A stretch of DNA of 44,760 bases from positions 1-44,760 of the forward strand of contig ONBW01000015.1 in the NCBI GenBank assembly GCA_900316165.1, in the 5' to 3' direction. The position numbers were made by a program, and so were the translations under genes. This stretch comes from an uncultured Lachnospiraceae bacterium. GTDB taxonomy: Bacteria > Bacillota > Clostridia > Lachnospirales > Lachnospiraceae. This document shows positions 6,197-37,435 of this stretch, piece by piece; positions within the stretch are counted from its first letter, which is position 1, and each line of letters starts with the position of its first letter. The notes under the pieces were generated by a model. It made no database searches, was not told the DNA's origin, and saw nothing but the letters and a program-made list of their open reading frames with translations.

Positions 6197-6249
6197 CTGA
6201 CAAACGCCTTTCACAAGCATTTATTAAACCAGAATTCAAATGCCCTTCA

Positions 6250-8514
6250 TCAGCATTTTTCAATCATAATAAGTATCCCGGTAAAGTCCTCTCTCGGAAG
6301 CTTAAGACAGAGACCTGCGTTGTTAAGCTCCTCTCCTCTTATACCGGAGATATCTAGAATTCTTCCTTCTGAATTTCTGTCAAAATACGCGTCGGCACTT
6401 GTTACCGCGATAACTCTGTATCTGAAATCAGGTGAAAGAACCTTGGTCTTTATCCTGATGCTCCTCTGGTTTGGCTCGGCGAGAGGCTGCATAAACCAGA
6501 GTGCGGCTTCGCTCCTGTCCTCAGATATCAGCTCGAAGCAGTCCGCATTGCCGGAAATACCGCCTACAGGGCCGTCAACTCTTCTGCGGTAGCTTTTTAT
6601 CCTGTAGTAATCACCTTTATTAACCAGATCATTTAAGCGTTTTCTAAGCCTTATCTGAGCTGGTATCTTACTTATATCTTCTTCTGAAATCGCGGTGATA
6701 TCGAGCTCATAGCCGAAGGTTCCAGCCATAGCCATGAGGCCTCTCGTATCAAACGATACATTTCGGCCAGAGATATCGTTGCGGTTTTTGCAGACATGAG
6801 CGCCCATCGTTGACACAGGGTAAATAAGCTCTGTACCCTCGCAGATAGAAAGCCTCTCGATAGGATCCATGTCATCTGAAGTCCAGATCTGCGGACTGTA
6901 ATAGAGCATTCCACAGTCGAACCTTGCTCCACCTGAGGAGCAATTCTCAATAAGGAGCCACGGAAATTCCTTAAGAAGCCTCTCCTGAATCTGATAGACA
7001 CCTAAGACATGCCTGTGGCAGACCTCGCCCTGCCTGTCAGCTGGCAGGTAGTGTGAATACGCGTCACAGATAGGCCTGTTCATATCCCACTTTATGTATG
7101 AGAGATTATTTTCCTTAATCTGAGCGGCTATTTTTTCATAGATCAGCTCTAAGACCTTCGGATTAGAAAAATCAAGCATCCACTGATTTCTGCATTCAGC
7201 TGGTCTTCTTCCTGGGAAGGAAAGTACGTACTCGGGATGACTCCTGTAAAGCTCACTGTCCTCAGAGATCATTTCGGGTTCGAACCAGAGGCCTAATTTC
7301 ATACCATTCTGTATAGCTGCCTCACTTACAGGTTTAAGACCTTCTGGCAGCTTGTTATCTACAGGCAACCAGTCTCCAAGTCCGCCTTCCGGCTCACTTT
7401 TAGACTTTCTGAACCAGCCATCATCAATAACAAGCATATCGAGACCCGATTCCTTCGCTTTACCTAAAATGGAAATAAGCTTTTTATCGTCAAAATCGAG
7501 ATACGTAGCTTCCCAGTTATTTACAAGAATAGGACGCTGTTTGTCCTTCCAGGCACTCCTTATGATATGGTCATGTATAAATCTATGGAAGGTCCTTGTC
7601 ATCCCTCCAAGTCCGGCATCTGAATATGTCATAATGACTTCCGGAGTATAGAAAGACTCTCCACGTAGCAGCTTCCATCTGAAATTCTCAGGATGAATAC
7701 CAAGAACTGTCCTGCTCATTCCAAAAGAATTAGTCTGGACCTTAGCTAAAAAATTTCCGGAATAAACCAGTGAAAAGCCGTATGCTTCTCCACTCTCCTC
7801 ACTGCAGTCACTTGATATAAGTCCAAGAAAAGGCTGACTTTCGTGTCCGCTCTCTCCCTTAACTGATTCAGTGACAATGGTTCCCGGCTTTACCTTCTGG
7901 AACTGTATCTGATGCTCTCTTGCCCAGGCTCCACTCTCATAGAGAACAGAATAGTCATCAAGCTCTGCGTCAATGCACATTGAAAGAGCTCTGTCGATAT
8001 AAAAGGCCTTATTCGAGCAGTTTTTAATTACGGCCCAACGGGTTATTACATCCAGATCACTGTAAACAGTGTAATTGAGCTCTACCTCTATTTGTCTTAT
8101 ATCATCACGAAGAGTAATAGAAAGTGTCTCACAGTTACTGTCTGTATGGTCAAAAGAAGCCGGAAGTCCTTTGATCTCCGGCTTTGTATTTCTTATCTGG
8201 TATCCCTTGTAAAATAACTCGATACCTCTGACATTATCATTAGAAGAGATATCCAGACAGCTTTCGCGGAAATCTCCTACTCCAGCTGTTGGATACTCAA
8301 AGGGAAGGTTATCAAGAAACGAGACCTTTTCGCCTGGCTTCTCCGAAGGCTCGCTAAGCTCCTCAAGCCGAAGGAGGTCTTGGGACGGGGCCTTCTCAAG
8401 CCTCTTTCCGTAATAGACATGGCCTAAGTAACCGTCAGCTGTTACCTTCATCAGGTATGAAGTCTTCGGAGTCGACAGGTGAATCAATCTTGTGTTCTGA
8501 TCAAAATAAATCAT
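6250..8514 (-). CDS. GH36 alpha-galactosidase
   Basis: This 754-residue glycoside hydrolase family 36 enzyme removes alpha-1,6-galactose side groups, here probably from imported galactomanno-oligosaccharides. It has an N-terminal beta-supersandwich (about 1-320), a TIM barrel starting near VNNWEATYLDF, and a C-terminal beta domain. YIKWDMNR carries the nucleophile (Asp ~477), and IENCSSGGARFD leads to WTSDDMDP with the acid/base Asp ~547. Length matches bacterial cytoplasmic GH36 (about 720-750), with no signal peptide. Its ATG shares the A of the preceding TAA, so it is translationally coupled to the GH130 gene. Confidence 0.93.
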   Translation of the reverse strand: MIYFDQNTRLIHLSTPKTSYLMKVTADGYLGHVYYGKRLEKAPSQDLLRLEELSEPSEKPGEKVSFLDNLPFEYPTAGVGDFRESCLDISSNDNVRGIELFYKGYQIRNTKPEIKGLPASFDHTDSNCETLSITLRDDIRQIEVELNYTVYSDLDVITRWAVIKNCSNKAFYIDRALSMCIDAELDDYSVLYESGAWAREHQIQFQKVKPGTIVTESVKGESGHESQPFLGLISSDCSEESGEAYGFSLVYSGNFLAKVQTNSFGMSRTVLGIHPENFRWKLLRGESFYTPEVIMTYSDAGLGGMTRTFHRFIHDHIIRSAWKDKQRPILVNNWEATYLDFDDKKLISILGKAKESGLDMLVIDDGWFRKSKSEPEGGLGDWLPVDNKLPEGLKPVSEAAIQNGMKLGLWFEPEMISEDSELYRSHPEYVLSFPGRRPAECRNQWMLDFSNPKVLELIYEKIAAQIKENNLSYIKWDMNRPICDAYSHYLPADRQGEVCHRHVLGVYQIQERLLKEFPWLLIENCSSGGARFDCGMLYYSPQIWTSDDMDPIERLSICEGTELIYPVSTMGAHVCKNRNDISGRNVSFDTRGLMAMAGTFGYELDITAISEEDISKIPAQIRLRKRLNDLVNKGDYYRIKSYRRRVDGPVGGISGNADCFELISEDRSEAALWFMQPLAEPNQRSIRIKTKVLSPDFRYRVIAVTSADAYFDRNSEGRILDISGIRGEELNNAGLCLKLPREDFTGILIMIEKC

Positions 8515-8515
8515 A

Positions 8516-9541
8516 TTATCTGATTCCTATTTCTGTATCAGTAGTATTTGTAACACTGTGCTCTTTTATATAATCGATAATGAGATCAAGCTGCGTAAAA
8601 GCAAGTCCGACATAGCTGTCAGCTGCTCCATAATAGAGAGCTATTCTTCCTGTCTCACTGTCATGAATCGTAGCGCAAGGGAAGCAGACATTCGGTACGA
8701 ATCCTCTCTCCTCATACCACTCTTCTGGTGTAAGAAGGAAGGTCTCGCAACGGTATTTAACTCTTGATGGCTCATCTATGTCGAGGATAGCTCCACCGAC
8801 TGAATAGACATAACCATTGCAGGTTCCTGAAACTCCATGGTAGAAAAGCAGCCATCCTTCTGATGTCTCGATAGGAGCTGCGCCTCCGCCGATCTTTAAG
8901 CTCTCCCACCACTCATTTCCTTTGCTCATTACATGGCGGTGCTTGCCCCAGTAAGTGAGGTCCGGGCTCTCAGAGATGAAGACATCTCCGAATGGTGTAT
9001 GTCCGCTGTCAGACGGACGTGAGAACATAACGAAGTTTCCGTTTATTTTTCTAGGGAAGAGAACTGCGTTTCTGTTAAATGGGAGGAACGGGTTCTCGAA
9101 TCTTGTAAATGTCTTGAAATCCTTTGTCTCTGCAATGCCTATTGCTGCGCCATAGAAGTCACCGCACCAGATGATATAGTAGGTGTCTTCTACTTTTACA
9201 AGACGTGGGTCATAGGCGTATACCGGCATGAAGTCATTTCCGTTCTTGTCGACGAAATGGATCTTCTCCTTATCAAAGTCCCAATGGATTCCGTCCTTGC
9301 TGTGTCCTAAATAGATGTAAGGGATTCCATTGGTCTGCTCACCTCGGAATACTCCGATGAATGCGCCCTCGAAAGGCACCACTGCGCTGTTAAAAATCCT
9401 TGCCACTCCCGGAAGAGGATTTCTTCCGATAACCGGATTCTCGCTGTATCTCCAAACAGGAGCATTGTTAAGCTCAGCCGGAGCGTCCTGCCAAGGCATA
9501 TTCTTTACAGCCGGGCTGTTTAAAATCTGATATTTCCCCAT
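8516..9541 (-). CDS. GH130 beta-1,4-mannooligosaccharide phosphorylase (GH130_2-like)
   Basis: This 341-residue GH130 five-bladed beta-propeller phosphorylase has the short N-terminus of the GH130_2 group. Visible motifs are NPVIGRNPLPGVARIFNSAV, VYAYDPRLVKVEDTYY with the catalytic Asp in YDPR, and the phosphate-side FYHGVSG. By family knowledge such enzymes phosphorolyse the non-reducing mannose of beta-1,4-mannooligosaccharides to mannose-1-phosphate. It is followed by a second GH130 of the other subgroup and by the epimerase, the same trio seen in Ruminococcus albus and Roseburia. Chain-length preference is inferred. Confidence 0.88.
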   Translation of the reverse strand: MGKYQILNSPAVKNMPWQDAPAELNNAPVWRYSENPVIGRNPLPGVARIFNSAVVPFEGAFIGVFRGEQTNGIPYIYLGHSKDGIHWDFDKEKIHFVDKNGNDFMPVYAYDPRLVKVEDTYYIIWCGDFYGAAIGIAETKDFKTFTRFENPFLPFNRNAVLFPRKINGNFVMFSRPSDSGHTPFGDVFISESPDLTYWGKHRHVMSKGNEWWESLKIGGGAAPIETSEGWLLFYHGVSGTCNGYVYSVGGAILDIDEPSRVKYRCETFLLTPEEWYEERGFVPNVCFPCATIHDSETGRIALYYGAADSYVGLAFTQLDLIIDYIKEHSVTNTTDTEIGIR

Positions 9542-9555
9542 AGTTTTTTCCTCTG

Positions 9556-10728
9556 TTATTTACTGATGAATTTTTTGTTCTTTCTGATCAGCTCAACTCT
9601 CTGCTTTACGCAGTCTACTGATCTGCCCGGATCCTCGTATCCATTGAATACGAAATCCTTAAGTCTTTCAATATCTGTATGAGCTACATGAAGTCTGGTA
9701 TCTGATGAAGCATAGTAGATATAAACCTCTCCAGCCTCATTAACTACAGCTCCGTTTGTGAACACGACGTTTGATACGTCGCCTACTCTCTCTGCCCCTC
9801 TAGGTCCAATGAAGAGCCCGCCCGGCTCTGCTATAACCTTTGAAGGGTCATTTAAATCTGTTGCAAAACAATAGAGCACATACCTGAGTCCTGCAGCGGT
9901 GTTTCTTACACCATGAGCTACATGAATCCAGCCCTTGTCTGTCTTTATAGGGACAGCCCCGGCTCCGTTCTTAGCCTCTGTGATCTGATGATATTTTCTG
10001 ATGCTGGTCATTTTTTCCTCATCGATTACAGGATGAGTGATATCATCGCAGAGTCCAAAACCTATTCCGCTTCCACTTCCAGTCTCTATAAAGTCATCCA
10101 TCGGTCTCGTATAGAAAGCGTACTTTCCATCTACGAATTCAGGATGGAGAACGACATTTCTCTGCTGCGGCGAATGAAGTGTCTTAAGGTTCGGGAGACG
10201 CTCCCAGTTCTTTAAATCCTTCGTACGCACGATTCCTGCAGCGGCTACTGCGGCTGAAAGATCGTTACTTGAGGTATCCTTACTCTCTGAGCAGAACACT
10301 CCATATATGTATCCATCCTCATGCTGTGTAAGCCTCATGTCGTAGACATTGGTCTCATTTGGTTCAGTATCTGGAAGCTGAATCGGCTCATCCCAGAATC
10401 TGAATCCATCCACCGGGCTGTCACTTTCTGCTACTGCAAAAAATGATTTGCGGTCATTTCCCTCAATACGCGGAACCAGATAATACTTTCCGTTTATATA
10501 GAGGGCTCCTGAATTAAGTACGGCATTGATTCCCAGACGTTCCATTCCAAAAGGATTGGTCTTCGGATCAAAGTCGTATCTCCAGGATACAGGTACATGA
10601 TCTCTTGTAAGCACCGGGTACTCGTATCTCTCGAAAAGGCCATTGTAAAAGGTCTCATCTGGTTTATTTACTCTGTTGTATAAAGCTTCCTGCTCATTTA
10701 TTAGTTCACTTATACTTTTTTTCTTCAA
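9556..10728 (-). CDS. GH130 4-O-beta-D-mannosyl-D-glucose phosphorylase (GH130_1-like)
   Basis: This 390-residue GH130 protein has the longer helical N-terminus ([19 protein letters not shown]) typical of mannosylglucose phosphorylases. [19 protein letters not shown] bears the catalytic Asp, and [20 protein letters not shown] follows. The reaction is mannosyl-beta-1,4-glucose plus phosphate giving mannose-1-phosphate and glucose, using the epimerase product made by the gene 10 bp upstream. Family members are homohexamers of about 390 residues, and the length fits exactly. No secretion signal is present. Confidence 0.9.
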
Positions 10729-10738
10729 GCTGCACCTC

Positions 10739-11989
10739 TTACTTAGCTTTTATTTTTTTGTTTACGAGTTCCAGTGCCAAAAGCACCATTCTTCCGTTAT
10801 GATACGGACATTTCCATTCTTCTACTATAGGTCTTCCTGGTATCGGTTTTCCGTCTTTATCGAGTTCCCAGAACCATTCAGAACCTTTTCTTTTATCAAT
10901 TGACTTTGTTTTTATATAAGTCCAGCAAGCCTCGGCTGCGTCGAGATATTTCTTCTCACCAGAGCTTAAATACTCATAGAGAAAACCATTGACTGTCTCG
11001 GCCTGTACCCACCAGACGCGGTTCTCGTTAACCTTATCTCTTTCTTTTTCCGTTGGAAGAGACGCTCCATCAAAACAGTTATTAAGTATCTCTTCGCTTA
11101 AATCCCGTGCCATATCGGCAACAGGCTTACTCTCTTTTCCGAGAACCTCCATTCCCCATCTGATAAGCCACGCTGTCTCGATATCGTGACCATAGGAATG
11201 CAGATCAATAAGTGAGTTATAATTCTTATCGAAAAATACTTCCTGTCTGTGCTTAGCCGGGTTATAGATTTTACTTAGAAAAATATCCAGCATAAACTCA
11301 AGTCTGCCAGAAATCTTTTCTTTCATCTCTGCGTTATCCTCTGCTTCAAGAAGCTTTGCATAACCCTCATAGACATGGAGAAGGGTGTTCATCGTTCGCT
11401 CCGCCATGACACCGTTCTCTGAAAGTTTTTCGTTTGATACCGGAGAAAAATCGCACGCATATGCTTCTCCGTATCCATCTTTGTCGCAGCAGTGCGTCTC
11501 AATTGTCTGATACAGCTTCTCTGCAATACTGAGAGCTTCCTTTTTCCCTGAAATCTCATAGTAGGCAGCAAGTCCATAAATACCAAAGCCCTGATTGTAC
11601 GTATGCTTTGTAGTATCATATGGTTTTCCGTCGTAGGTAACTGACCAGAACAGTCCGCCATTTGTCTTGTCGTAGATCACATCTCTTAAGAAACAGTATG
11701 CCTGATCGGCTGCTTCTCTGATCTGAGCTGAACTGACGCCTCCGGCCTTAAGATCCTCTTCAGTTATCCTACCTTCTGATACAGACTTAAGTACCGAGGA
11801 GAAGAACCAGAGTATTCTGCTGTTAAGGATTGAACCCTTGACAGCTTTAGGATCATCAACCAAGTCGTAATCCATATACCCTGTAAAGCCACCATAGGTG
11901 TCATCCTCCCTCTTAAGCCAGAAGGGAAGGATGACTGTGCATAGATGGCTTTTCATCTCATTTGTCATCTGTGTAAAAACATCGTTCAT
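10739..11989 (-). CDS. Cellobiose 2-epimerase (AGE family)
   Basis: This 416-residue (alpha/alpha)6-barrel protein belongs to the N-acylglucosamine/cellobiose 2-epimerase family. It converts the reducing-end mannose of beta-1,4-mannobiose to glucose so that mannosylglucose phosphorylase can act. Conserved His-bearing segments are [35 protein letters not shown] and [12 protein letters not shown], and the [15 protein letters not shown] helix is intact. Length fits (about 390-420). It sits between the sugar importer and the phosphorylase that needs its product, five bases after the permease stop, clearly in one operon. Confidence 0.92.
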
Positions 11990-11993
11990 TTTT

Positions 11994-12875
11994 TTATCCC
12001 TTTACTGCTCCAGTAGCAATACCACTGTAGATCTGCTTCTGGAACAGGATAAATACGATAAGTGCCGGCAGGAAGGAAATAATAACTCCTGCGCAGATCA
12101 GGTTGTACTTAGAACCCATAGGTCCTACGAATACATAGAGTGAAGTAGCAAGTGTCCTGACATCAGGGCTCTGCAGATAAAGGTTTGCACAGTAGTATTC
12201 GTTGTAAACACTTACGCCCTTAAGAATACAGCTTGTAACGATAGCCGGTTTTAAAAGCGGAAGTATAATCTTCCAGTAAATGGTCCAGTAGCTTGCTCCG
12301 TCCATGATTGCCGATTCATCAAGTGATACAGGAATGTTCTCCATAAACTGAATGAAAAGGTAGATGGAAATTACATCAGTTCCGCACATCATGATGATGT
12401 AGCCGTAGAGATGATTGATAAATCCAAGCTTTCCCATAATGTTGTAAACTGAAACCTGCATTGCTACTGCAGGAAGGAGGCTTGCAAAGAAAAACAGGTT
12501 TCTTATGAGCTTATTTCCTGGGAACTTGAATCGGTTCAGGACAAATGCAAGCTGTGAACCAATGATAACTGATACGCCAAGTACCACTACCATTACGATA
12601 AGGGAGTTAAAAAACGCTCTGCCCATGTTTGCCTTAGTAAAGGCAGAAACGAAGTTGCTGAAGTTCAGCCAGTTCTTCGGAAGTGTCATAACACTTGTCG
12701 ACTGATATTCCTTATCAGACTTGAATGCTGTGATCACGCACGATACTATAGGGAGCAGTGCTATAAATCCGAAGAAACAGAGTGAAAAGTATTTGAGGAA
12801 TCCCCAGACGCACTGAGTAGGTGTATATGTCTTTTTTGCTTTAACAGGCTTATATGTCTTTACTGTCTTATCCAT
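11994..12875 (-). CDS. Sugar ABC transporter permease (MalG/MsmG type)
   Basis: This 293-residue inner-membrane permease has about six transmembrane helices. The first is near residues 28-48, after a lysine-rich cytoplasmic start. The ATPase-contacting EAA-type loop is SLDESAIMDGASYWTIYWKI at about 180-200, followed by LPLLKP. It pairs with the permease encoded immediately upstream, whose stop overlaps this start by one base. The importer probably takes up manno-oligosaccharides. No ATPase gene lies in the operon, so a shared MsmK-type ATPase encoded elsewhere would be required. Confidence 0.92.
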   Translation of the reverse strand: MDKTVKTYKPVKAKKTYTPTQCVWGFLKYFSLCFFGFIALLPIVSCVITAFKSDKEYQSTSVMTLPKNWLNFSNFVSAFTKANMGRAFFNSLIVMVVVLGVSVIIGSQLAFVLNRFKFPGNKLIRNLFFFASLLPAVAMQVSVYNIMGKLGFINHLYGYIIMMCGTDVISIYLFIQFMENIPVSLDESAIMDGASYWTIYWKIILPLLKPAIVTSCILKGVSVYNEYYCANLYLQSPDVRTLATSLYVFVGPMGSKYNLICAGVIISFLPALIVFILFQKQIYSGIATGAVKG

Positions 12876-13879
12876 TATTTAGCACCTCCTGCAGCTGCAG
12901 CTTTTTTAGCTGCCTTTTCAGCTTTGAGTCTGGCTTTCTTTGCCTTATAGGACTCATCCTCTGAATCCGCATCTCTGAACACATACTTGAAGAACAGCTT
13001 CTGAAGTATGGTGCAGATAAAGATGATAAGGAGAAGTACAATAGCCATCGCGGACGCAAGACCTACTTTCTGCGAAGTATGGGCGATCCTGTTCATGATA
13101 ACGAAGTACGTTCCTGTTCCATTAGCACCGTCTGTGATGACGTATGGAGGCTCGAATGCACTTAACGAACCTGTGATACTAAGGATGATATTTAAGGTTA
13201 CGATTGTTTTGATAGATGGAAGAATTATGTACCTGAACTGCTGCATCTTGTTTGCTCCATCGAGTGAAGCTGCCTCATACAGCTCGGAATCTACCGACAT
13301 GATAGCTCCGATGAAAAGTACCATATTCTGTCCGAAGTATCTCCAAACTGAGGTAAATACCAGGGACCAGTTGTTTACTCTCTGATCCTTAAGCCAGTAC
13401 GGAAGATCCGCGAGATTGAATCCGCACCACTGAAGAACGGTATCAAGCACGAAACCTCTGGTAAAGAAGAACTTAAAGATAAATCCGATTGCAATACCAC
13501 TGATCAGATAAGGGAAGAACATGACTCCCTTGAAAAAGTTACCACCCTTTACCTTAAAGCTTAAGATTGTGGCCAGATAGAGTGCGAGCACCAGCTGAAC
13601 TAAGGCGCCTACCATGTAGAAGAGTGAAAGCTTCAAAGCTCCGAAGCAATCCTTTCTTCTGAAGACATCCATATAGTTCCTTAAGCCTACGTACTGTCTG
13701 TTCTGTACCGGCGTGGTATATTTCATTTTGTAAAAACTGAACTTTACCATCTCACCAAAAGGTATATAGGTAAAGATCATAAGCAGTGCCACGGGTATCA
13801 ATGAAAATCCTATGACGATCAGTACCTGCTGGACTTTTCTGCTCGTAATCCATTTTTTAAAGCTTCCGGCCCCTGACAT
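12875..13879 (-). CDS. Sugar ABC transporter permease (MalF/UgpA type)
   Basis: This 334-residue permease has six predicted membrane helices starting near residue 17 and an EAA loop ELYEAASLDGANKMQQFRYI followed by LPSIKT. The C-terminus is a lysine/alanine-rich cytoplasmic tail of about 30 residues (AKKARLKAEKAAKKAAAAGG), longer than is usual for the family and possibly a contact site. It lies 19 bp after the binding-protein gene, and the permease partner follows with a one-base overlap. Confidence 0.92.
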   Translation of the reverse strand: MSGAGSFKKWITSRKVQQVLIVIGFSLIPVALLMIFTYIPFGEMVKFSFYKMKYTTPVQNRQYVGLRNYMDVFRRKDCFGALKLSLFYMVGALVQLVLALYLATILSFKVKGGNFFKGVMFFPYLISGIAIGFIFKFFFTRGFVLDTVLQWCGFNLADLPYWLKDQRVNNWSLVFTSVWRYFGQNMVLFIGAIMSVDSELYEAASLDGANKMQQFRYIILPSIKTIVTLNIILSITGSLSAFEPPYVITDGANGTGTYFVIMNRIAHTSQKVGLASAMAIVLLLIIFICTILQKLFFKYVFRDADSEDESYKAKKARLKAEKAAKKAAAAGGAK

Positions 13880-13898
13880 TTTATGCCTCCTGTTTAAA

Positions 13899-15287
13899 TC
13901 AATACTTTACTTCGATACCGTTTGCTTCCTGAGCGTCACTCCACTTCTTGTTCCACTCATTCATGATATCGTCGAATGATTCGTCACCCTTTGAAGCGTG
14001 CTCAATGATAGCCTGTACCTTATCATTTCCACCGTTGTTGATGTTAAGCTCTGACTCAGAGTTCATATCGTTAAGGTAATCCTCTTCTCCCTCGAGAGCC
14101 GGCTCATCCTCTTCGATATCTACGCCCTTGAAGTCAAGCTTTGTGCTGTTATCTTTTTTTGTTACAGGAAGGCCATCCTCGTTATATGAGAACTGTGACT
14201 CATCTGTCATCCACTTTACAAAGATAAGTGCTGCCTTCTTCTCTGTGTCTGAAGCATGTACGTTGATTCCGTATGAATAGTCAGCACCAGCTGAAGCGTA
14301 CTGCTTTCCGTTTACTGTCATAGGGAACGGCATATAACCTACATCATCACCCTTGTCACCAGCTGCCTCCATCTGAGGATAAGCCCATGAACCAAGAACC
14401 ATGCAGCCGATCTTTCCGCTGTTAAGCATTCCCTTTGAACCTTCCCAGTCTGTTGTGGTGTAGTCATCCTCTGTAAGTCCCTTTGATACTGCATCATAGA
14501 GGATCTTGTAAACGTTATAAGCATGAGTGTCATCGCCTGGATCAGAGAACGGATTCTTTGTATGAACAAGCTTCTGGTTCATATACTTTGTATCGCCTGT
14601 TGCATTGATTCCGATGTAAGCGTCCCAGGCACCCATTGTCCAGCCAGCTGCGTAGTTGGTGTAAAGAGGAATTGCATCTGTCTTATCCTTGATCTTCTGC
14701 AGATCCTCGATGAACTCCTCAGGTGTTGTAGGAAGTCCTGAGATTCCAGCGTCTGAGAATACCTTCTTGTTATAAACGATACCCTGAGTTGTTGCTGTAG
14801 AAGGAACACCGTAAACCTGTCCGTCATACTCCCAGGTATTTGCGTAGTTGATTTCCTTCTCCATATTGTCGATCGAATCAAACGGCATAAAGTATGTAGA
14901 AAGATCTGACTTATCTACTGCCGGGATCATCATGACTGTCTCATAATCTCCTGACTGAAGATGTGTAAGAGCATCATCAGCATAGTTTGTATCTGTGGTA
15001 ACTGTTACCTTGATGTTCGGATACTCCTTGTTGAATGCTGCGATGTACTCTTTCCAGGTTGTTCCGCCGTAATCATCAGAACTCATATCTGTTCTGTGAT
15101 TGAACACTGTGATGTCAGCCTTAAGATCTGTGTCCTTGCCAAGCTCTGTGCCTGAATAGGTAAGATCCCCACCCTTGCTGTCGGCGCTGCTGGAGCTGCC
15201 GCCTTTTGAACTACTGCTGTTTCCGCATGCTGCCATTGATACGCACATAGCAGCTGCTAATGTAAGAGCCATTAATCTCTTCTTCAT
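13899..15287 (-). CDS. Manno-oligosaccharide ABC transporter solute-binding lipoprotein
   Basis: This extracellular substrate-binding lipoprotein of 462 residues is in the MalE/family-1 group. The start is ATG at 15287, which has GGAGGG seven bases upstream; the in-frame ATG at 15308 has none. The signal peptide KKRLMALTLAAAMCVSMAAC ends in a lipobox with the anchored Cys, followed by a Ser/Gly linker. The mature region contains the typical DITVFNHRTD opening and a PYGVPSTATTQGIVYNKKVF-like hinge segment. As the first gene of the operon it is probably the most abundant product and sets substrate range. The mannan-oligosaccharide ligand is inferred from the downstream enzymes. Confidence 0.9.
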   Translation of the reverse strand: MKKRLMALTLAAAMCVSMAACGNSSSSKGGSSSSADSKGGDLTYSGTELGKDTDLKADITVFNHRTDMSSDDYGGTTWKEYIAAFNKEYPNIKVTVTTDTNYADDALTHLQSGDYETVMMIPAVDKSDLSTYFMPFDSIDNMEKEINYANTWEYDGQVYGVPSTATTQGIVYNKKVFSDAGISGLPTTPEEFIEDLQKIKDKTDAIPLYTNYAAGWTMGAWDAYIGINATGDTKYMNQKLVHTKNPFSDPGDDTHAYNVYKILYDAVSKGLTEDDYTTTDWEGSKGMLNSGKIGCMVLGSWAYPQMEAAGDKGDDVGYMPFPMTVNGKQYASAGADYSYGINVHASDTEKKAALIFVKWMTDESQFSYNEDGLPVTKKDNSTKLDFKGVDIEEDEPALEGEEDYLNDMNSESELNINNGGNDKVQAIIEHASKGDESFDDIMNEWNKKWSDAQEANGIEVKY

Positions 15288-15328
15288 TTTTAGTCCCTCC
15301 TTCATCATTTGGACTGTTAACTATAAAC

Positions 15329-15388
15329 TTTAGCTTAGCTCTTTTCTTAAGCTAATTTAATTATACTCTTTAGCTTAATTTAGTCAAG
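15329..15388 (-). promoter_or_regulatory. Mannan operon promoter with TTAAGCTAA operator-like sites
   Basis: Reading the minus strand, TTGACT (15387-15382) is followed after 16 bases by TATAAT (15365-15360). TTAGCTTAA at 15370-15378 lies inside the spacer. The palindrome TTAGCTTA/TAAGCTAA at 15330-15337 and 15348-15355 covers the expected transcription start. The 9-mer TTAAGCTAA also occurs at the phosphohexomutase promoter (18462-18470). The LacI-type regulator next door is the obvious candidate binder. The promoter is seen; the operator role is inferred. Confidence 0.75.
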
Positions 15389-15516
15389 GAAAAATCACAT
15401 ACTTTTTACAATTTAGTCGATTTTACCAATTAAATAAGCTATTAATTGTGCACTTTTCATAATTAAATTGGCTAATTTTACATCGCTTTAACTTAATTAG
15501 CTAATTTTAATGGCTA

Positions 15517-15547
15517 ATTAAAGCGGCGGATAATTAATTTCCGCCGC
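15517..15547 (-). terminator. Terminator of the lacI gene
   Basis: On the minus strand GCGGCGGA and TCCGCCGC (15547-15523) form an 8-bp GC stem around an AATTAATTA loop, followed by TTTAATTAG. It lies 33 bases after the LacI stop. It insulates the regulator transcript from the strong operon promoter immediately downstream. Confidence 0.8.
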
Positions 15548-15579
15548 CAGATTAAATTTATTTAATCTTTAAACCTGGA

Positions 15580-16620
15580 TTAACTTTCATCCGAAATATC
15601 CCTGACTGAATCCTTCTCTATAAGTCTTCCGCCTACGATCTGGACTCCACCCTGGTATGGCTTGTCATCAAGCTTATGAATCACCATGTGAACTGCTTTT
15701 CTCGCCATATTTTTTACATCGATCTCATATGTGGTAATACCGATGTCACAGAGACCAGGATACAGGTAATTATCATAGCCGACAACAGAGATATCATCCG
15801 GAATACGATAGCCGTTTTTTCTAAGCTTATGGATCAGATAGCTGGCTGAAAGGTCACAGTTACAGACGAATGCTGTCGGCATTTCCTTTTTCGGTGGAAG
15901 CTCGAAGAATCTGTCCTCGTTTATTTCACCGGTCTCTCTGTCTCTATCATCCATTATGAAGATATCGTCCCTCGTGGCGCCATGCTCCATCAGGGACTTC
16001 GCATATCCTAAAAACCTGTCATTTATTGACTCTGTAGCATCTATAGTACCGACGAAGCCAATTTTTCTATGACCATGTTCATATAGATAGTTCGTCATCG
16101 CAAAGCTTCCATAAAAGCTGTTTGATATGACTGCTTCGGCATTCTGCTCAGTCGTTGAAAAATCCATATAGAAGACAGGTATTCCACTTTCTTCTTTAAG
16201 AGTCTTTAAATATCCGTCCGCAAGCTTTCCTATGACGATTATCGCGTCAGCCTTCTCCTCAGCAACAAGTGCCGGCATTATATGGTCGGCTTCATCCTGA
16301 TCAGATACCGGCTCCATAAAAGCAAAACTGCCTCTGTCTACAGCGATCGTAGCGACTTCCTGGTACATCTTCACATAGAACGATGAGTACTTTCCCATAT
16401 ACCTGTCAGCAATCAGGACGCCAATATTGTAATGACCGGATAAAGTTCTTTCTCTCTTTATCCTTCTGCTCTTCTGGTACCCCATCTCCCCTGCCAGGTC
16501 GATGATCTCTTTTCTTACAGATTCGCTTACTCCCTTCTGACCTGACAGAGCTTTAGATACGGTAACAGTAGATACGCCAACCCGCTCCGCTATATCTGAC
16601 AGTGTGACCTGTTTAGACAT
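15580..16620 (-). CDS. LacI-family transcriptional regulator
   Basis: This 346-residue LacI/GalR regulator has an N-terminal helix-turn-helix TLSDIAERVGVSTVTVSKAL at residues ~5-24, a hinge near 50-60, and a periplasmic-binding-protein-like effector domain (NIGVLIADRYMG onward; CNCDLSASYLIHKLR; DDISVVGYDNYLYPG). Length is standard. It is placed 26 bp after the phosphohexomutase gene, in the same transcript, and just before the mannan operon promoter. It most likely represses the operon until a mannose-containing oligosaccharide or sugar phosphate binds. Effector and operator are inferred. Confidence 0.92.
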   Translation of the reverse strand: MSKQVTLSDIAERVGVSTVTVSKALSGQKGVSESVRKEIIDLAGEMGYQKSRRIKRERTLSGHYNIGVLIADRYMGKYSSFYVKMYQEVATIAVDRGSFAFMEPVSDQDEADHIMPALVAEEKADAIIVIGKLADGYLKTLKEESGIPVFYMDFSTTEQNAEAVISNSFYGSFAMTNYLYEHGHRKIGFVGTIDATESINDRFLGYAKSLMEHGATRDDIFIMDDRDRETGEINEDRFFELPPKKEMPTAFVCNCDLSASYLIHKLRKNGYRIPDDISVVGYDNYLYPGLCDIGITTYEIDVKNMARKAVHMVIHKLDDKPYQGGVQIVGGRLIEKDSVRDISDES

Positions 16621-16646
16621 ATTTCCTCCTTTTATCGAACTGCTTG

Positions 16647-18380
16647 TCAGTTCTCTGCAAGCTTTGTCATTGCGCTCTTAAGCTCTTCAAGCTTCTTATC
16701 GGCGTCAGCTACACTTTCTCCTTTAACTCCCATGTAGAACTTTATTTTCGGCTCTGTTCCCGAAGGACGCACACAGCACCATGCGCCATCTGAAAGCTCA
16801 TAATATAAAACATTGGATTCCGGAAGTGACAGACTGCTCTCCTGTCCGCTTACCATATCCTTACGGATACCGCTCTTGTAGTCGCGAAGCGCAAGTACCT
16901 TGTAAGCTCCGAGGCTTTCTACTGGCTCGTTTCTCATTGTCTCCATCATTGATTTGATGGCCATAGCTCCGTCCTCACCCTTTTTAGTAATTGTAAAGAG
17001 AGTCTCTCTGAAATATCCGTATTTCTTATAGAGGTCGTTCATAGCATCCTTTAAGGTCTTGCCATGCTTTTTGTACCAGCATGCGACCTCGCAGAGAAGC
17101 ATTACCGCTACAGGTGCATCCTTATCCCTCGCGTAGGTTCCTGCGAGACAGCCGTAGCTTTCCTCCATGCCAAAAATAAACTCGTGGCTGTTATTCTCTT
17201 TAAAGAGCTTAATCTGCTCTCCTATGTACTTAAATCCTGTAAGGACCTCGATAAGTGAAACTGAATAGTCCGCTGCGATGGCCTTCAGCATATCTGTAGT
17301 AACTATAGTTTCTACTACAGCTGCATTCTTTGGAAGAGTACCCGTAGCCTTTTTCTCACGGAGCAGATACTCACCAATAAGTACTCCTGACATATTACCG
17401 GTGAAGCTGATGTATCCACCATTTTCAGTATCCTTGCAGTAAACTCCAAGTCTGTCGGCATCCGGATCTGTAGCAAGAACCAGGTCAGCGTCCTTTTCTT
17501 CAGCGAGCTTTAAGGCAAGCTCAAAAGCCTTTGGTGATTCAGGATTTGGATAAGAAACTGTAGGGAAAGTGCCATCCGGCTTCTCCTGTTCTGGAACTGT
17601 ATATACCTTTTTAAATCCGAGCTCCTTTAATACTCTTCTGACAAAGACATTTCCTGTACCGTGAAGTGGAGTGTAGACTATAGTAAAGTCATCAGCCATC
17701 TCTTTAATTACTTCAGGATGAACTGACTGCTTTTTAAGCTCAGCGATATAGGCATCGTCAACCTCATATCCTATCACATGGTAGAGGTCTGCTACCCTTG
17801 CACTCTCCTGGTCTATAGTCTTTACCTCGGAAAAATCAGTGACCTTAGCCACCTCTGCAAGGATATTCTTATCATGAGGAGGAGTGATCTGTGCACCATC
17901 CTCCCAGTAAACCTTATAACCATTGTACTCACGTGGGTTGTGGCTTGCTGTGATAACGATTCCTGCAATGCAGTGGAGCTGTCTAACTGTAAATGACAGC
18001 ACCGGCGTAGGTCTAAGGCTTGGAAAAATAAAGCTCTTAATTCCATTTGCATTGAGGCAGAGAGCTGCCTCCTCAGCAAATTCCTTCGACATGATTCTGG
18101 AGTCGTATGCTATAGCAACTCCCTTATCCTCACCGTGCTGCTTTACTATGTAGTTTGCAAGACCCTGTGTAGCCTTGCGCACGGTGTAGACGTTCATTCT
18201 GTTCGTTCCTGCGCCTAAGACCCCTCTTAAGCCACCTGTTCCGAACTCCAGGTCCCTGTAGAACCTGTCGTTGATCTCATCCTCATCGCCTGAGATCTTT
18301 TTTAACTCTTCTTTGGTATCCTCATCGAAATAAGGATCATTCAGCCATTCTTCGTATCTTTTTTTTACTTCTTCCGTCAT
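16647..18380 (-). CDS. Phosphohexomutase (phosphoglucomutase/phosphomannomutase)
   Basis: This 577-residue alpha-D-phosphohexomutase interconverts hexose-1- and hexose-6-phosphates. In this locus it would turn the mannose-1-phosphate released by the two GH130 enzymes into mannose-6-phosphate. Motifs are GIVITASHNPREYNGYK with the phosphoserine in TASHNP, the metal loop ATDPDADRLG, the sugar-specificity loop GMEESYG, and the phosphate-binding RPSGTEPKIKFY. The ATG at 18380 with GGAGGG six bases upstream is the start; the upstream in-frame TTG has no site. It is co-transcribed with lacI. The mannose versus glucose preference cannot be decided from sequence. Confidence 0.92.
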   Translation of the reverse strand: MTEEVKKRYEEWLNDPYFDEDTKEELKKISGDEDEINDRFYRDLEFGTGGLRGVLGAGTNRMNVYTVRKATQGLANYIVKQHGEDKGVAIAYDSRIMSKEFAEEAALCLNANGIKSFIFPSLRPTPVLSFTVRQLHCIAGIVITASHNPREYNGYKVYWEDGAQITPPHDKNILAEVAKVTDFSEVKTIDQESARVADLYHVIGYEVDDAYIAELKKQSVHPEVIKEMADDFTIVYTPLHGTGNVFVRRVLKELGFKKVYTVPEQEKPDGTFPTVSYPNPESPKAFELALKLAEEKDADLVLATDPDADRLGVYCKDTENGGYISFTGNMSGVLIGEYLLREKKATGTLPKNAAVVETIVTTDMLKAIAADYSVSLIEVLTGFKYIGEQIKLFKENNSHEFIFGMEESYGCLAGTYARDKDAPVAVMLLCEVACWYKKHGKTLKDAMNDLYKKYGYFRETLFTITKKGEDGAMAIKSMMETMRNEPVESLGAYKVLALRDYKSGIRKDMVSGQESSLSLPESNVLYYELSDGAWCCVRPSGTEPKIKFYMGVKGESVADADKKLEELKSAMTKLAEN

Positions 18381-18394
18381 ATATCCCTCCAAAA

Positions 18395-33418: not shown

Positions 33419-33479
33419 ATTTATATTCCTTACTTGTTATTTGCTGCTTTGATATTGTAACACTTTTACTATATTTTGA

Positions 33480-34125
33480 GAACCATTCTCTTTGCTTCTT
33501 GTTATTTATTCATTTTTGTGTAAAATATTAATGGATATGGCTTTATGAATATATTAAGATAATATCAATTAATTTGTTTGATGTATATGTATACTAATAA
33601 TTTATTTGTATATATGTATGTTTAATTAATTTGTATTTTACTTTATATTATAATCTGTTATTATTATTCTTCTTTGTCTTTTATTTCATATTTATATTCT
33701 TATTTTTATTATTATGCTTATTTCTTATTAGTTTATGTTATTATATTATAATTAGTATTTTTCATTATATTTGATTTTGTCGTCATATCTATATTTGAAT
33801 TTTTATTATTATATTATATTCTATTTTAATTTTAGTATATTAATTTTAATTTGTTTTTGACGTCGAATTTGACTTTTAATTTAATATCATATATAACAAT
33901 GTATATGTCTTTGGATTATGTATTAGAATTTAAATTATAAATAAATGTTTTATGTAAAATAAGATTTAAAATTCGAATAATAAATCATTGTCATATTTTA
34001 AAGCAAATAGTCGTCAGCAAATAAAAATTATAACAAATATACTAATAAGAATACTAATAATAACAACAAACATTAAGATAAAATAAGAATATAACGTGAA
34101 ATAATATAACAAATATAAATTGGAA
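33480..34125. other. Extremely AT-rich gene-free region
   Basis: About 650 bp with only scattered G or C (by eye roughly 15% G+C) separates the leftward TPR/AAA+ genes from rightward parA. It holds no reading frame of note. Weak direct repeats such as ATAACAAATATA (34031 and 34102) and several TCGTCA/GACGTC islands are visible. It may be a centromere-like parS region, a DNA-unwinding element or a topological spacer. No function is shown. Confidence 0.6.
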
Positions 34126-34154
34126 TTGACATAAGATTACAAACTACATATAAT
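34126..34154 (+). promoter_or_regulatory. Consensus sigma-A promoter of parA
   Basis: TTGACA (34126-34131), exactly 17 bases, then TATAAT (34149-34154), both perfect. CAGGAGGCC supplies the ribosome site for the ATG at 34202. ParA or its partner would be expected to repress it through the AT-rich repeats upstream. Confidence 0.88.
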
Positions 34155-34201
34155 AAAGCATACATAAAGAAAGAGTGTAAACTATTCAGGAGGCCAAATA
34201 A

Positions 34202-34963
34202 ATGATAACAATATCGATAGCCAACCAGAAGGGCGGTGTAGCAAAAACAACAACCGCGTTATGTCTGGCGAACGGGCTGCAGGAATGTGGCTATAAAGTG
34301 CTGGTGATAGACATGGATCCTCAGTGCAATACCTCAAGTACATATAGAGCAATACAGGAGAATACGGCTACACTATATGATTTTCTACATGAAGACTGCA
34401 CTATAGAAGAAGCTATCCAGACAACAGAAAGTGGAGATATAATATCTGGCGACAGTAATCTGGCAGGAATAGAAGGAGAATTTGCAGCACATATAAAGAA
34501 TTATTCCCTACTAAGAAAAGCACTAAAAACAATAGATGATAAATATGACTTTGCTATTATAGATACACCGCCAAATATAGGTTTTTATATGACCAGTGCA
34601 CTAGTAGCATCTAGTGGAGTCATAGTCCCACTAAAGGCTGAGAAGTTTGCAATAGATGGATTAGCACAGATAATGGCTAATATCAACGACGCAAAAGACG
34701 TAAACCCAGATCTACAGATCTATGGAGTTCTGCTGACAGTATATGATAAGAGAACAGCCTTAGACACAGTAGTACATGATCAGCTTCCAGAAATTGGAAA
34801 AGAAAGAGGATTTAAAGTTTTTAAAACATCTATACGAACCTGTCAGCAGATTAAAGAAGCACAATCACGCCAGGTAAGACTATTTGATGAATATCCAAAC
34901 TGCAATGCAGCAATAGACTACGCAAATCTGATAAAAGAATTATTAGAGGAGGTAAAGAAATGA
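34202..34963 (+). CDS. parA: ParA-family partition ATPase
   Basis: This 253-residue deviant-Walker ATPase has an N-terminal ISIANQKGGVAKTTTALCLA with the ParA signature KGGxxKTT, then DMDPQCNTS and AIIDTPPNIGFY. It lacks the N-terminal HTH of type Ia ParA, so it is the short type Ib form that works with a small ribbon-helix-helix partner. It positions replicon copies on the nucleoid. Its stop overlaps the start of the partner gene by four bases (ATGA). A terminator and the iteron origin follow. Confidence 0.93.
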   Translation: MITISIANQKGGVAKTTTALCLANGLQECGYKVLVIDMDPQCNTSSTYRAIQENTATLYDFLHEDCTIEEAIQTTESGDIISGDSNLAGIEGEFAAHIKNYSLLRKALKTIDDKYDFAIIDTPPNIGFYMTSALVASSGVIVPLKAEKFAIDGLAQIMANINDAKDVNPDLQIYGVLLTVYDKRTALDTVVHDQLPEIGKERGFKVFKTSIRTCQQIKEAQSRQVRLFDEYPNCNAAIDYANLIKELLEEVKK

Positions 34964-35424
34964 AGGCCAATTCAAAGAACAGATCAGGAAATATATTTGA
35001 ATCAATTCGAAAAGAAGAAGAAAAGGAAGAAAAAGAAGAAAAAGCCAAAAACAATCAGGTTGATACATCAATCAAAAAGCCTCAGCAAGTAAATATGGCC
35101 ACTAAAAAGACTGAAACTCTGGCAAAAAATACCAATAATGCAGAGACACAGGAAAAGCCTGCAAAAACAACAAAAACTGAAAAATTCGCAGAAACAGTTT
35201 CAAATAACTCTGGCGACAACTACTTAAATATGCCGGAAAATAAAGTTGATTCTTCTGTCAATAACGGTTTATTATATATAACACCAACCAGAAAAAAGAC
35301 CAGAAGCCATAGAAAAGGCTTCTTATTATCAGATCTGGCGCTTAATAACCTTCAAAAAGAAGCTGCAAAGTACGAAATCAGTGAAAATGAACTAATAAAC
35401 CAGATATTAGAAAAAATGATCTGA
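34960..35424 (+). CDS. ParA partner, probable ribbon-helix-helix centromere-binding protein
   Basis: This 154-residue protein has a highly charged, Lys/Glu-rich and apparently disordered first 90 residues, with a short C-terminal domain. That domain contains KKTRSHRKGFLLSDLALNNL and EAAKYEISENELINQILEKM. The beta strand plus two helices resemble a CopG/ParG-type ribbon-helix-helix. Position directly after parA with a four-base overlap is the standard place for the ParB/ParG/ParR partner. The long disordered arm could stimulate the ATPase. No sequence family is recognised with certainty. Confidence 0.7.
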   Translation: MKANSKNRSGNIFESIRKEEEKEEKEEKAKNNQVDTSIKKPQQVNMATKKTETLAKNTNNAETQEKPAKTTKTEKFAETVSNNSGDNYLNMPENKVDSSVNNGLLYITPTRKKTRSHRKGFLLSDLALNNLQKEAAKYEISENELINQILEKMI

Positions 35425-35512
35425 TAAGTAAAAATGGCCAGAGTTTCAAATCAATAACAATAAAAAGACATGTACAACAACAAAATTATTTGTTTATTAT
35501 AGAGTGCTTTAA

Positions 35513-35545
35513 CCCCAGGAAAATCAAAGATCCTGGGGATTTTTA
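35513..35545 (+). terminator. Terminator of the par operon
   Basis: CCCCAGGA (35513-35520) and TCCTGGGG (35531-35538) make a perfect 8-bp stem followed by ATTTTTAA. It separates the partition genes from the iteron array, whose first copy begins at the next base. Confidence 0.88.
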
Positions 35546-35626
35546 ATGGCAAAAAATACTAAAAGACCGTGCAGGAACTGTAGTTAGTAATGGCATCAAT
35601 ACAATAAAGGACTGGCAGAATTTACT

Positions 35627-35635
35627 TGTGGATAA
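35627..35635 (-). other. Perfect DnaA box in the iteron array
   Basis: TGTGGATAA on the plus strand is the exact complement of the consensus DnaA box TTATCCACA. It begins immediately after the iteron at 35612-35626. Iteron origins commonly carry one or more DnaA boxes for host initiator recruitment. Confidence 0.8.
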
Positions 35636-35922
35636 ACCAGTTATGGCTGAAACTACTGAAAATACTGGCAAAAATGACTTAAATAGGGTGACTATAAATA
35701 TTATGAATCTGAATATAAGTATATTCTACCAGAGTTACAGTAATTTTTGCCAGGATTGTAATATTTGATGCAGGGTAAACAGTAGATGATGCCATAGTAT
35801 AAGTAAAATCCGCCATTAGAAAACTGAAATCAAGTATTTTATGCCATGAAATCAAAATAAATAAGAAAGACAGGATAAGTAATCTATGCCATGAAAAGAA
35901 ATCAATTAATGGCAAAAACTAC

Positions 35923-35951
35923 TTGACAGAGGTGGCAAAATAGTATTTAAT
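35923..35951 (+). promoter_or_regulatory. rep promoter overlapped by iterons
   Basis: TTGACA (35923-35928) is followed after 17 bases by TTTAAT (35946-35951). The iteron at 35909-35923 abuts the -35, and the one at 35932-35946 fills the spacer. Rep binding would block its own transcription, the usual autoregulation of iteron replicons. Confidence 0.65.
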
Positions 35952-36040
35952 ATAAAAGGAATAGGTAGAATTCGCCATAATAAGAGCAAAATGATGGCGG
36001 AAAGTACTGAAAAAAGTTTTACTGGCCGGAGAGGAAGCAT

Positions 36041-37435
36041 ATGGAAAGCAGAATCGAGGAAGATACATTGAATAAAAGTGAAGCAAAAAAGCAAATGCTT
36101 CCACAAGAAGCAGATCAACAGAAAGTATATAAAGGCACAGAGCTGATATCTGCGAAGTATAAAGCTTCACTTTTAGAAAATAAGCTCACATCCATTGCTC
36201 TTTCAAGACTTACAATGGAGGGAGATACTCCGGTAGCTACGCTTTTTCCGTCAGAGATAAAGAAGCTTTTGGGGAGACAGTCAGATACAAATATCTATAA
36301 AAAGCTTATCAGTACAGCAAAGACTATGACAGGACATCAAATGGTCATAGAGGATGATAAGGGGAATTTTGAAGTTCTCGCTATGATTACGAATGCCAGA
36401 TACGAAAATGGCGTGTTTTCTGTCACTTTTAATAAAGTCATAGCTCCATATATCATTAATATCAAGGGCAATTATACCAGTTATTCACTGGCAAATGTCT
36501 TAAGATTCAAATGTGATTATTCATTCCGTATTTATGAGCTAATTAAATCAGAGGCCTGGCATTTAAAAAAAGGCGACATGAGTGACTATTATGTCAAGGA
36601 ATATGGTCTTTCTGAGCTTAAATGTATGATCGGAGTCGTGAATATGGACGAGGCGAAGGTCAAAAGAGCAAAACAGAATGGTGCCAGCTGGGATAAAATC
36701 GTAGAAATCGCAAATGAGAAATCGTTTAATGAGTGGGGAGATTTCAGACGGAGGGTTCTGGACAGAGCAAAAAAAGAACTTGCTGAACAGTGTGATGTAA
36801 AATTCGATTATGATCCGATAGCAGCTGGACGAGGCGGCAAAATTGTCGCAGTAAAGTTTATTATCAGGTGGAACAACCCTGGTGAGAAGGTTATTGAGGC
36901 TATCAGTGCAAAGAAAAAACAGGTTGAAGAAACAAACAACCAGTATGAACAGATGACTCTAACTAATCTTTCGGATCAGATGGAGGCATTAGTTGGACAT
37001 AATGGGCTTACAGAATCAGATATAAGAGCTTTCCTTAAAGAAGCGCTTCATGATGAGAACGAAGTTATCAGAGCAGTGGAAATGGCTGACAGGCAGACAG
37101 GACCATTGAATAATTATCCTGGTTGGATTATCTCATGTATCAGAGAACATTATGATGAATCAACTATGGTAATAGAAGGATCAAAGGAGAAGGGAGATAG
37201 AGTAGTAAAGGCAAATGAAATTTTAGCTTCAAATTCGGATGAAGAGACAAAGAAAATGTCAGCTAATTATTGGAATAAGGCTATGAGAAAACGTTCGGAT
37301 AATTTCAAAGAGTTTGAAGATTACCTAAAAAGCAGAGGAGTATCGATGGATATGTTCACTGATGGAAACGAGGACTACGAGTGTGGTGATAAATTCATGC
37401 AGTGGATAAAGACAGGTGAGACTGATCCGTTCTGA
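36041..37435 (+). CDS. Rep_3-type (RepB family) replication initiator
   Basis: This 464-residue initiator has an N-terminal Rep_3/RepB-like winged-helix pair: residues ~30-190 include SAKYKASLLENKLTSIALSR, LFPSEIKKLLGRQSDTNIYK, and SLANVLRFKCDYSFRIYELI before SEAWHLKKG. A second winged helix is likely around 190-290 (FRRRVLDRAKKELAEQCDVK). The C-terminal ~170 residues are longer than in most 300-350-residue RepB proteins and contain helical, acidic sequence of unknown role. GAGAGGAAG precedes the ATG. It should bind the iterons just upstream and open the origin. Its stop is only two bases from the end of a convergent gene. Confidence 0.9.
   Translation: MESRIEEDTLNKSEAKKQMLPQEADQQKVYKGTELISAKYKASLLENKLTSIALSRLTMEGDTPVATLFPSEIKKLLGRQSDTNIYKKLISTAKTMTGHQMVIEDDKGNFEVLAMITNARYENGVFSVTFNKVIAPYIINIKGNYTSYSLANVLRFKCDYSFRIYELIKSEAWHLKKGDMSDYYVKEYGLSELKCMIGVVNMDEAKVKRAKQNGASWDKIVEIANEKSFNEWGDFRRRVLDRAKKELAEQCDVKFDYDPIAAGRGGKIVAVKFIIRWNNPGEKVIEAISAKKKQVEETNNQYEQMTLTNLSDQMEALVGHNGLTESDIRAFLKEALHDENEVIRAVEMADRQTGPLNNYPGWIISCIREHYDESTMVIEGSKEKGDRVVKANEILASNSDEETKKMSANYWNKAMRKRSDNFKEFEDYLKSRGVSMDMFTDGNEDYECGDKFMQWIKTGETDPF

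Follow-up and report, generated by a model that had tools for sequence, protein, structure and literature searches.

We wondered what a dense group of short repeats, lying between partition genes and a replication initiator gene in an uncultured Lachnospiraceae bacterium, might do and which protein might read them. The stretch of DNA analysed as a whole (44,760 bases, hereafter the window) is the entire contig G000:C52 of a draft genome (2.59 Mb in 117 contigs, 91% complete, 2.4% contamination), and the replicon is thus known as a fragment. At 34.2-37.4 kb it carries parA, a parB-like gene, an intergenic gap of 616 bp and a gene for a Rep_3 initiator. Many other ORFs examined in the window are metabolic (sugar use, transporters, oxidoreductases), and a sugar-use cluster comprising a GH36 melibiase, two GH130 proteins, an epimerase, an ABC transporter, a LacI-type regulator and a phosphomannomutase/phosphoglucomutase lies at 4052-18392 of this replication contig. 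The genes and signals of the locus are as follows.

34202-34963, plus strand: parA, ParA-type partition ATPase (Pfam AAA_31, 2.3e-50)
34960-35424, plus strand: parB-like gene, 154 aa, no Pfam match, placed after parA; conserved C-terminal part, variable linker with three iterons
35513-35545, plus strand: probable par operon terminator, hairpin (loop of 10) and T-run (fold -14.7 kcal/mol, z -2.66)
35923-35951, plus strand: putative rep promoter read from the sequence, TTGACA (35923-35928), 17 nt, TTTAAT (35946-35951); TTGACA in four of four aligned origins
36041-37435, plus strand: rep, Rep_3 family replication initiator, 464 aa (Pfam Rep3_N 5.2e-24 and Rep3_C 3.3e-10, both above cut-off)

The product of 34960-35424 would be the ParB of this locus, and the conserved C-terminal part of the protein looks, by eye, like a ribbon-helix-helix. 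A consensus promoter/terminator scan called neither the putative rep promoter, whose -10 box is weak, nor the probable par terminator.

Layout and phasing of the repeats

The pattern MTGGC-N6-TACT matched 12 times in the window, every time at 35210-36008, as compared with a mean of 0.56 and a largest count of 4 in 100 shuffles. We then used a 26-column matrix seeded from the TGGC-N6-TACT sites of eight relatives, with the window left out, and a score cut-off of at least 8. It returned 13 sites in 35430-36040, where 200 shuffles gave a mean of 0.09 and a maximum of 2. Four more lie at 35088-35427, and the rest of the window has three (6150, 12262 and 30362). The array of initiator-size sites beside rep that characterizes a Rep_3 iteron replicon is therefore present (13 sites versus 0.09 expected). 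Across the 2.59-Mb genome the core pattern gave 25 matches, ten in the 0.8 kb from par to rep and 15 scattered; as a reversed control pattern gave 13, the rest of the genome is at background. A wider scan, as suggested in a preliminary description of this DNA, thus confirmed that the repeats are real and clustered here. The sites in the gap, called by the matrix except for the half-iteron, are these.

35546-35560, plus strand: iteron, left block
35590-35594, plus strand: half-iteron, ATGGC without TACT (ATGGC in four of four aligned origins, TACT in none of the four)
35612-35626, plus strand: iteron, left block
35643-35657, plus strand: iteron, left block
35665-35679, plus strand: iteron, left block
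35718-35732, minus strand: iteron, right block
35739-35753, minus strand: iteron, right block
35781-35795, minus strand: iteron, right block
35802-35816, minus strand: iteron, right block
35833-35847, minus strand: iteron, right block
35878-35892, minus strand: iteron, right block
35909-35923, plus strand: iteron overlapping the rep -35 box
35964-35978, minus strand: iteron directly downstream of the putative rep promoter
35994-36008, plus strand: iteron ahead of the rep start

Ten of the eleven starts listed in the preliminary description were recovered by the matrix, whereas 35590 proved to be a left half only. Its two opposed blocks in the rep gap, and the 38 bp that it placed between them (35680-35717), were found as described, but the array extends further. 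Seven sites had been missed, namely 35909 (plus), 35964 (minus) and 35994 (plus) over the rep promoter, 35427 (minus) after the parB stop, and 35088 (minus), 35119 (plus) and 35210 (plus) inside parB. Within the gap the order is four plus sites (35546-35679), six minus sites (35718-35892) and then plus, minus and plus (35909-36008), which rules out a simple head-to-tail array in the window. The arrangement is also asymmetric, with four plus against six minus sites before the final three, and the related loci L025 and L029 have 13 minus sites in a row. The symmetric Rep assembly suggested in the preliminary description is not supported in the form given there.

Complete arrays are available for eight origins, that of the window and those of L022-L025 and L027-L029, L026 being truncated where its contig ends. 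The order of plus block, minus block, plus and minus recurs with small changes in the seven orthologous origins, the long minus block varying from 6 to 13 sites, and the final site before rep is plus in the window and L022-L024 and minus in the others.

Same-strand spacings in the window are 66, 31, 22, 21, 42, 21, 31 and 45 bp. Spacing close to whole helical turns, as had been claimed, holds for six of these eight (within 0.1 turn at 10.5 bp; jitter test, p = 0.014-0.017), while the spacings of 66 and 45 bp are out of phase. Across the eight origins, same-strand spacings cluster at 21, 31-32 and 42 bp. All same-strand pairs up to 110 bp (n = 197) gave a vector strength peak of 0.54 at 10.5-10.6 bp; neighbours only gave 0.63-0.64 at 10.5 bp, with a maximum of 0.69-0.70 near 11.0 bp, and the neighbour statistic of 0.65 compares with a null maximum of 0.34 (jitter up to 5 bp, 2000 trials). 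Taken singly, seven of the eight loci passed the jitter test at p < 0.02 and L023 alone failed (p = 0.14), the orthologous loci being related and hence not eight independent tests of phasing. Distances between the opposed blocks are 53 bp in four origins and 64, 73, 74 and 41 bp in the others, corresponding to 5.0, 6.1, 7.0, 7.0 and 3.9 turns, and the promoter plus and minus sites stand either 55-56 or 64-65 bp apart, a difference of one turn. Steps of roughly whole turns between relatives are hard to explain without selection for the helical face. Helical phasing is thus supported across orthologues, and the whole-turn steps among them make a face-of-helix rule for Rep cooperativity testable by evolution. 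A passage in a review states that displacement by half a turn abolishes Rep cooperativity (PMC4980987).

Opposed blocks had also been thought exceptional. To judge this we surveyed 25 Rep_3 loci of Lachnospiraceae that do not belong to the close group of the window, taking a score of at least 50 as a clear motif and fewer than 80% of sites on one strand as mixed. A clear motif was present in 14 of the 25 loci, eight with mixed orientation and six mostly head-to-tail; the 11 weak-motif loci were dropped from the orientation count, and some rows are near relatives (L016/L017, L013/L019). With eight of 14 clear arrays mixed, opposed blocks are neither exceptional nor unique. It is conceivable, if improbable, that they arose by chance, through drift of a head-to-tail array, and have no function, a reading compatible with the rest of our explanation and the likeliest alternative within it. 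Orientation is indeed mixed in many relatives and head-to-tail in others, and the related iterons of a Roseburia plasmid point nearly all one way. Against drift, genomes that share no more than about 75-76% identity in Rep still have the same order of plus block, minus block and plus-minus sites, and their inter-block distances differ by about whole turns.

Candidate opening sites

Where the strands might separate was examined using the following elements.

33419-34201, no strand: very AT-rich intergenic region, candidate centromere (100-bp blocks of 13-28% GC), between a minus-strand TPR gene and parA; contains the skew minimum at 33,497
35474-35499, plus strand: ACAACAACA...TTTATTA element, candidate DNA unwinding element, from a pattern shared with genus origins
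35627-35635, minus strand: perfect DnaA box TTATCCACA, abutting the iteron at 35612-35626 and the only one in the window
35680-35717, no strand: AT-rich 38-bp inter-block gap, second candidate opening site, overlapping the least stable 30-mer of the window origin

The pattern ACAACA-N4..22-TTTAT lies between parB and the array in six of the eight genus origins, and the other two have close variants by alignment. In all eight the element overlaps one of the five least stable 30-mers. It also occurred in 12 of 24 other Lachnospiraceae Rep_3 loci as against 1.1 expected, a count that is not an independent test since the pattern was shaped on the same loci (L018 and L026 were excluded beforehand); 11 of the 12 are in rep orientation and that of L046 is reversed. 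None of four Bacilli/Thermoanaerobacterium plasmids has it. Rep proteins of F and RK2 are described, in a passage on their unwinding elements, as binding one strand sequence-specifically (PMC4081077), which would explain why an AT-rich motif is oriented and conserved. Only in the window and L028 does the least stable 30-mer overlap with the inter-block gap; in the other six origins it does not.

The DnaA box reported to abut an iteron is present and perfect but is not conserved. Of the eight origins only those of the window and L023 have a perfect box, L027 has one with a single mismatch, and a DnaA-box-driven origin as a general feature was therefore rejected. At least one perfect box appeared in 27 of 100 whole-window shuffles, so that a single box in 44.8 kb is by itself no surprise.

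A GC skew analysis, proposed as a further check, gave a sign change at the par-rep locus, but its minimum (33,497) lies about 2.0 kb to the left of the gap's first iteron. Skew is negative to the left and positive to the right of the locus in seven of seven contigs. When split by coding strand, the sign of each side was kept in most classes and was opposite in plus genes on the left of G008 and minus genes on the right of G006. The minimum falls 2.4-2.9 kb upstream of rep in all seven contigs (for the window, within the AT-rich region that precedes parA), and the last 500 bp before parA have no more than 30% GC per 100-bp block in the seven of seven loci that cover them (L025 offers 207 bp only). 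A TTGACA-17-TATAAT sequence can be read before parA in this AT-rich region.

Skew and base composition could thus be taken to mean that the array is mainly an operator or control region for Rep and that the strands open upstream of parA. We consider this unlikely. As parA, parB and rep all lie on the plus strand and pull the minimum towards the parA start, the skew minimum alone does not place the origin before parA. Moreover, the opening element of RK2 adjoins its iterons, as one passage on that plasmid describes (PMC4081077), and here too a conserved AT-rich element adjoins the array. We retain the array as the candidate origin, with the ACAACA element and the inter-block gap as candidate opening sites.

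Candidate proteins for repeat binding

Four further matrix sites lie in or directly after the parB-like gene.

35088-35102, minus strand: iteron inside parB (PWM 18.1; matching place in six of eight loci)
35119-35133, plus strand: iteron inside parB, TACC variant in the window (PWM 12.0; matching place in six of eight loci)
35210-35224, plus strand: iteron inside parB (PWM 22.0; GGC, AAC and TAC codons identical in six of six)
35427-35441, minus strand: iteron just past the parB stop (PWM 19.8)

The three internal sites occupy matching places of the variable parB linker in six of the eight loci; L025 and L029 lack them. Considering codons that have synonyms and encode an amino acid invariant in the six loci, one codon was used throughout at six of seven positions inside the sites versus 11 of 62 outside (Fisher p = 0.0006), seven being a small number. 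Of the 20 iterons of Roseburia sp. 831b, four fall within the second ORF and another follows 10 bp past its end; in 8.3 kb there are none beyond the origin and that ORF. Among 23 other loci compared, for which upstream DNA is limited, an exact site in an upstream ORF following parA was seen in L082 only (weak motif, score 16), and the sites of L083, L084, L095 and L096 fall in different ORFs that are less clear. As far as these loci can tell, parB-internal iterons are a feature of the window's group and Roseburia and not of the whole family. Iterons in the parB frame with frozen codons are more unusual than the opposed orientation, and so is the ACAACA...TTTAT element.

By sequence alone, Rep gave weak PDB matches (best to pi, E 0.0072). 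A first AlphaFold model was too poor (pLDDT 57.3) and was set aside; a model built from a 25-sequence alignment (pLDDT 75.7, pTM 0.54) matched RepE bound to its iteron (1REP), RepE with single-stranded DUE DNA (8AAN/8AC8) and pi (2NRA). The predicted fold aligns with RepE at a TM score by target of about 0.7 and an rmsd of about 5 A, at 15% identity, and the 47 structure matches at E ≤ 0.001 were all RepE-series, pi or RctB entries, some of them co-crystal titles without a protein name. The WH1 and WH2 domains of a Rep_3 initiator are thus indicated both by Pfam, above cut-off for each, and by the fold match to RepE and pi. The centres of the two conserved half-sites lie about one helical turn from each other, which would suit a pair of winged helices placed in successive major grooves. 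Rep residues ~282-464, past the Rep_3 domains, are mostly helical in the model and partly common to Roseburia and the C45 replicon.

Comparison of more distant loci bears on which protein reads the repeats. The Roseburia 831b plasmid (Rep 43% identical) has the iteron ACGG-N7-TACT, in register with ATGGC-N6-TACT, and its parA-linked ORF is without similarity to the window parB (E = 14). G004 and G003 (Rep 39-41%) have CGGA-N6-TACT, and the C45 replicon (Rep 44%) has a TTTGGYAGA motif. In the Butyrivibrio fibrisolvens plasmid pNP243 the repeats are upstream of rep while the par genes lie on the opposite side of it. The motif varies with Rep, also where the partition partner is unrelated (Roseburia) or the par genes are displaced (pNP243), and the repeats thus appear to follow Rep. 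Most likely, to judge from these sequences, Rep rather than ParB binds them.

Partition proteins of the ribbon-helix-helix type are known for binding arrays of short sites that face either way. With three sites in parB and one just after it, the repeats might accordingly be a centromere (parS) bound by the parB-like protein, with rep merely adjacent. This appears very unlikely, because a related Rep with an unrelated partition partner has a motif in the same register, and because L025 and L029 keep parA and parB without sites in parB, whereas eight of eight complete-array loci keep the array ahead of rep. In addition, sites overlap the putative rep promoter, and for a centromere the AT-rich region ahead of parA is the better candidate. 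The earlier proposal of an iteron origin for a Rep initiator, of the Rep_3 family and adjoining parA and a parB-like gene, is well supported.

Replicon type, proposed mechanism and known systems

A plasmid-type replicon inherited together with the chromosome is usually called a chromid. The window has plasmid-type replication and partition genes (Rep_3, ParA-type ATPase), and close Rep orthologues (76-100% identity) occur in nine of 13 genomes of the genus; two others have a distant Rep only and two have none. Across the nine genomes with a close Rep, pairs that are more alike in DnaA are also more alike in Rep (r = 0.95, Mantel p = 0.0002), the pattern expected of a chromid that is passed on vertically. 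Replication of a secondary, plasmid-type replicon of a Lachnospiraceae group very probably starts in this stretch, and the replicon, known from contigs of 12-79 kb of which none is closed, is likely a chromid. A DnaA/oriC chromosomal origin was dismissed, since the window has one perfect DnaA box and the best DnaA match lies on another contig, C74. Butyrivibrio, named earlier as the comparison group, is not among the close relatives found, which are other Lachnospiraceae, including Lachnospiraceae bacterium C10; the Rep of the Butyrivibrio fibrisolvens plasmid pNP243 is 32% identical.

Further Rep_3 genes were seen in these genomes. The genome of the window contains a second Rep_3 replicon (L014 / G000:C45:20395-21714), whose Rep is 44% identical; its repeats, likewise in both orientations, differ from those of the window, and parA is followed there by another gene, of ~250 aa. 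G003, a draft genome of the genus (82% complete, 4% contamination), has five different Rep_3 genes on contigs C77, C102, C181, C193 and C223, three with clear, differing bipartite repeats, one with a weaker motif and one poor. L095 (G244:C1:3244305-3245456) is a Rep_3 gene within a 3.4-Mb single-contig Lachnospiraceae genome and is perhaps an integrated plasmid or chromid.

Taking the observed sites, their orientation, spacing and conservation, the Rep family and the match to chromosome ancestry together with the predicted Rep fold, we are confident that the locus is the iteron origin of a Rep_3-type chromid-like replicon working broadly as follows. Rep monomers would use their two winged-helix domains to contact the bipartite 15-bp sites, whose halves, ATGGC and TACT, are separated by about one helical turn. 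The mostly near-whole-turn spacing within and between blocks would put bound Rep on one face and allow cooperative binding, and the opposed blocks might close on each other or load two helicases. Once the blocks are filled, the DNA would open at an AT-rich element (35474-35499 or the inter-block gap) and forks would depart in both directions. By occupying the sites that overlap or flank the rep promoter, Rep would repress its own transcription. The parB-internal sites and the one behind that gene may serve as incA/incC-like control iterons, either titrating Rep or handcuffing with the origin block.

A bolder idea, which we regard as doubtful, is that shared DNA wires replication to partition: Rep sites in frame next to parA would pair with the origin block through helical register and opposite polarity, and Rep occupancy would both set copy number and block parAB transcription. 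If true, the chromid would be segregated only in step with its own initiation. The partition-gene iterons and the ACAACA...TTTAT element in any case provide testable leads on replication-segregation coupling and on Rep_3 opening sites in Lachnospiraceae. The comparison also yields a candidate origin for a Lachnospiraceae chromid, and eight further genomes of the genus carry close orthologues. Titles and abstract openings, of open papers only and thus weak evidence of absence, contained no report of the present origin or of Rep_3 iterons inside parB.

Among known systems, ori2/incC of the F plasmid (RepE, Rep_3) is alike in its tandem winged-helix initiator, to which the Rep model matches, in having origin iterons and a separate control set, and in its autoregulated rep, which we propose here. 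The F repeats are mostly direct. Here the iteron sequence differs, both orientations occur and extra sites lie in a partition gene. A passage that cites the ori2-incC interaction in F also describes two separate iteron blocks in RepFIB, with handcuffing proposed between them, so that control iterons away from the origin are known from F incC and the FIB downstream block (PMC11983097). RepFIB resembles the present locus in these two blocks, but they flank rep, whereas here the sites are upstream of rep and inside parB.

Chr2 of V. cholerae is likewise an iteron chromid, and its ori2 (RctB) has separate initiation and inhibitory initiator sites; the fold match of Rep to RctB is weaker (E 3.9e-4). 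A passage on Chr2 reports one 39-mer overlapping rctA, a transcribed but untranslated ORF (PMC6090056). Unlike Chr2, with its two kinds of initiator site, the window has one kind, and the overlapped gene looks translated. Closer in taxonomy, the Butyrivibrio fibrisolvens chromid pINBov266 is a Lachnospiraceae chromid with, as a passage of its description has it, repA and parB at the skew switch (PMC6249431); the word "iteron" has no occurrence in that paper. The plasmid pNP243, from a strain other than INBov1, has a different iteron. The Roseburia sp. 831b plasmid p_831b_unnamed1 (NZ_CP135163.1) shares the order of parA, second ORF, iteron array and rep, and a motif in the same register, but its array is almost wholly head-to-tail and its second ORF shows no sequence relationship to the window parB. 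A Rep_3 iteron chromid origin is of a known kind, of which the conserved opposed, phased layout and the codon-frozen iterons of the partition gene make the present locus a variant.
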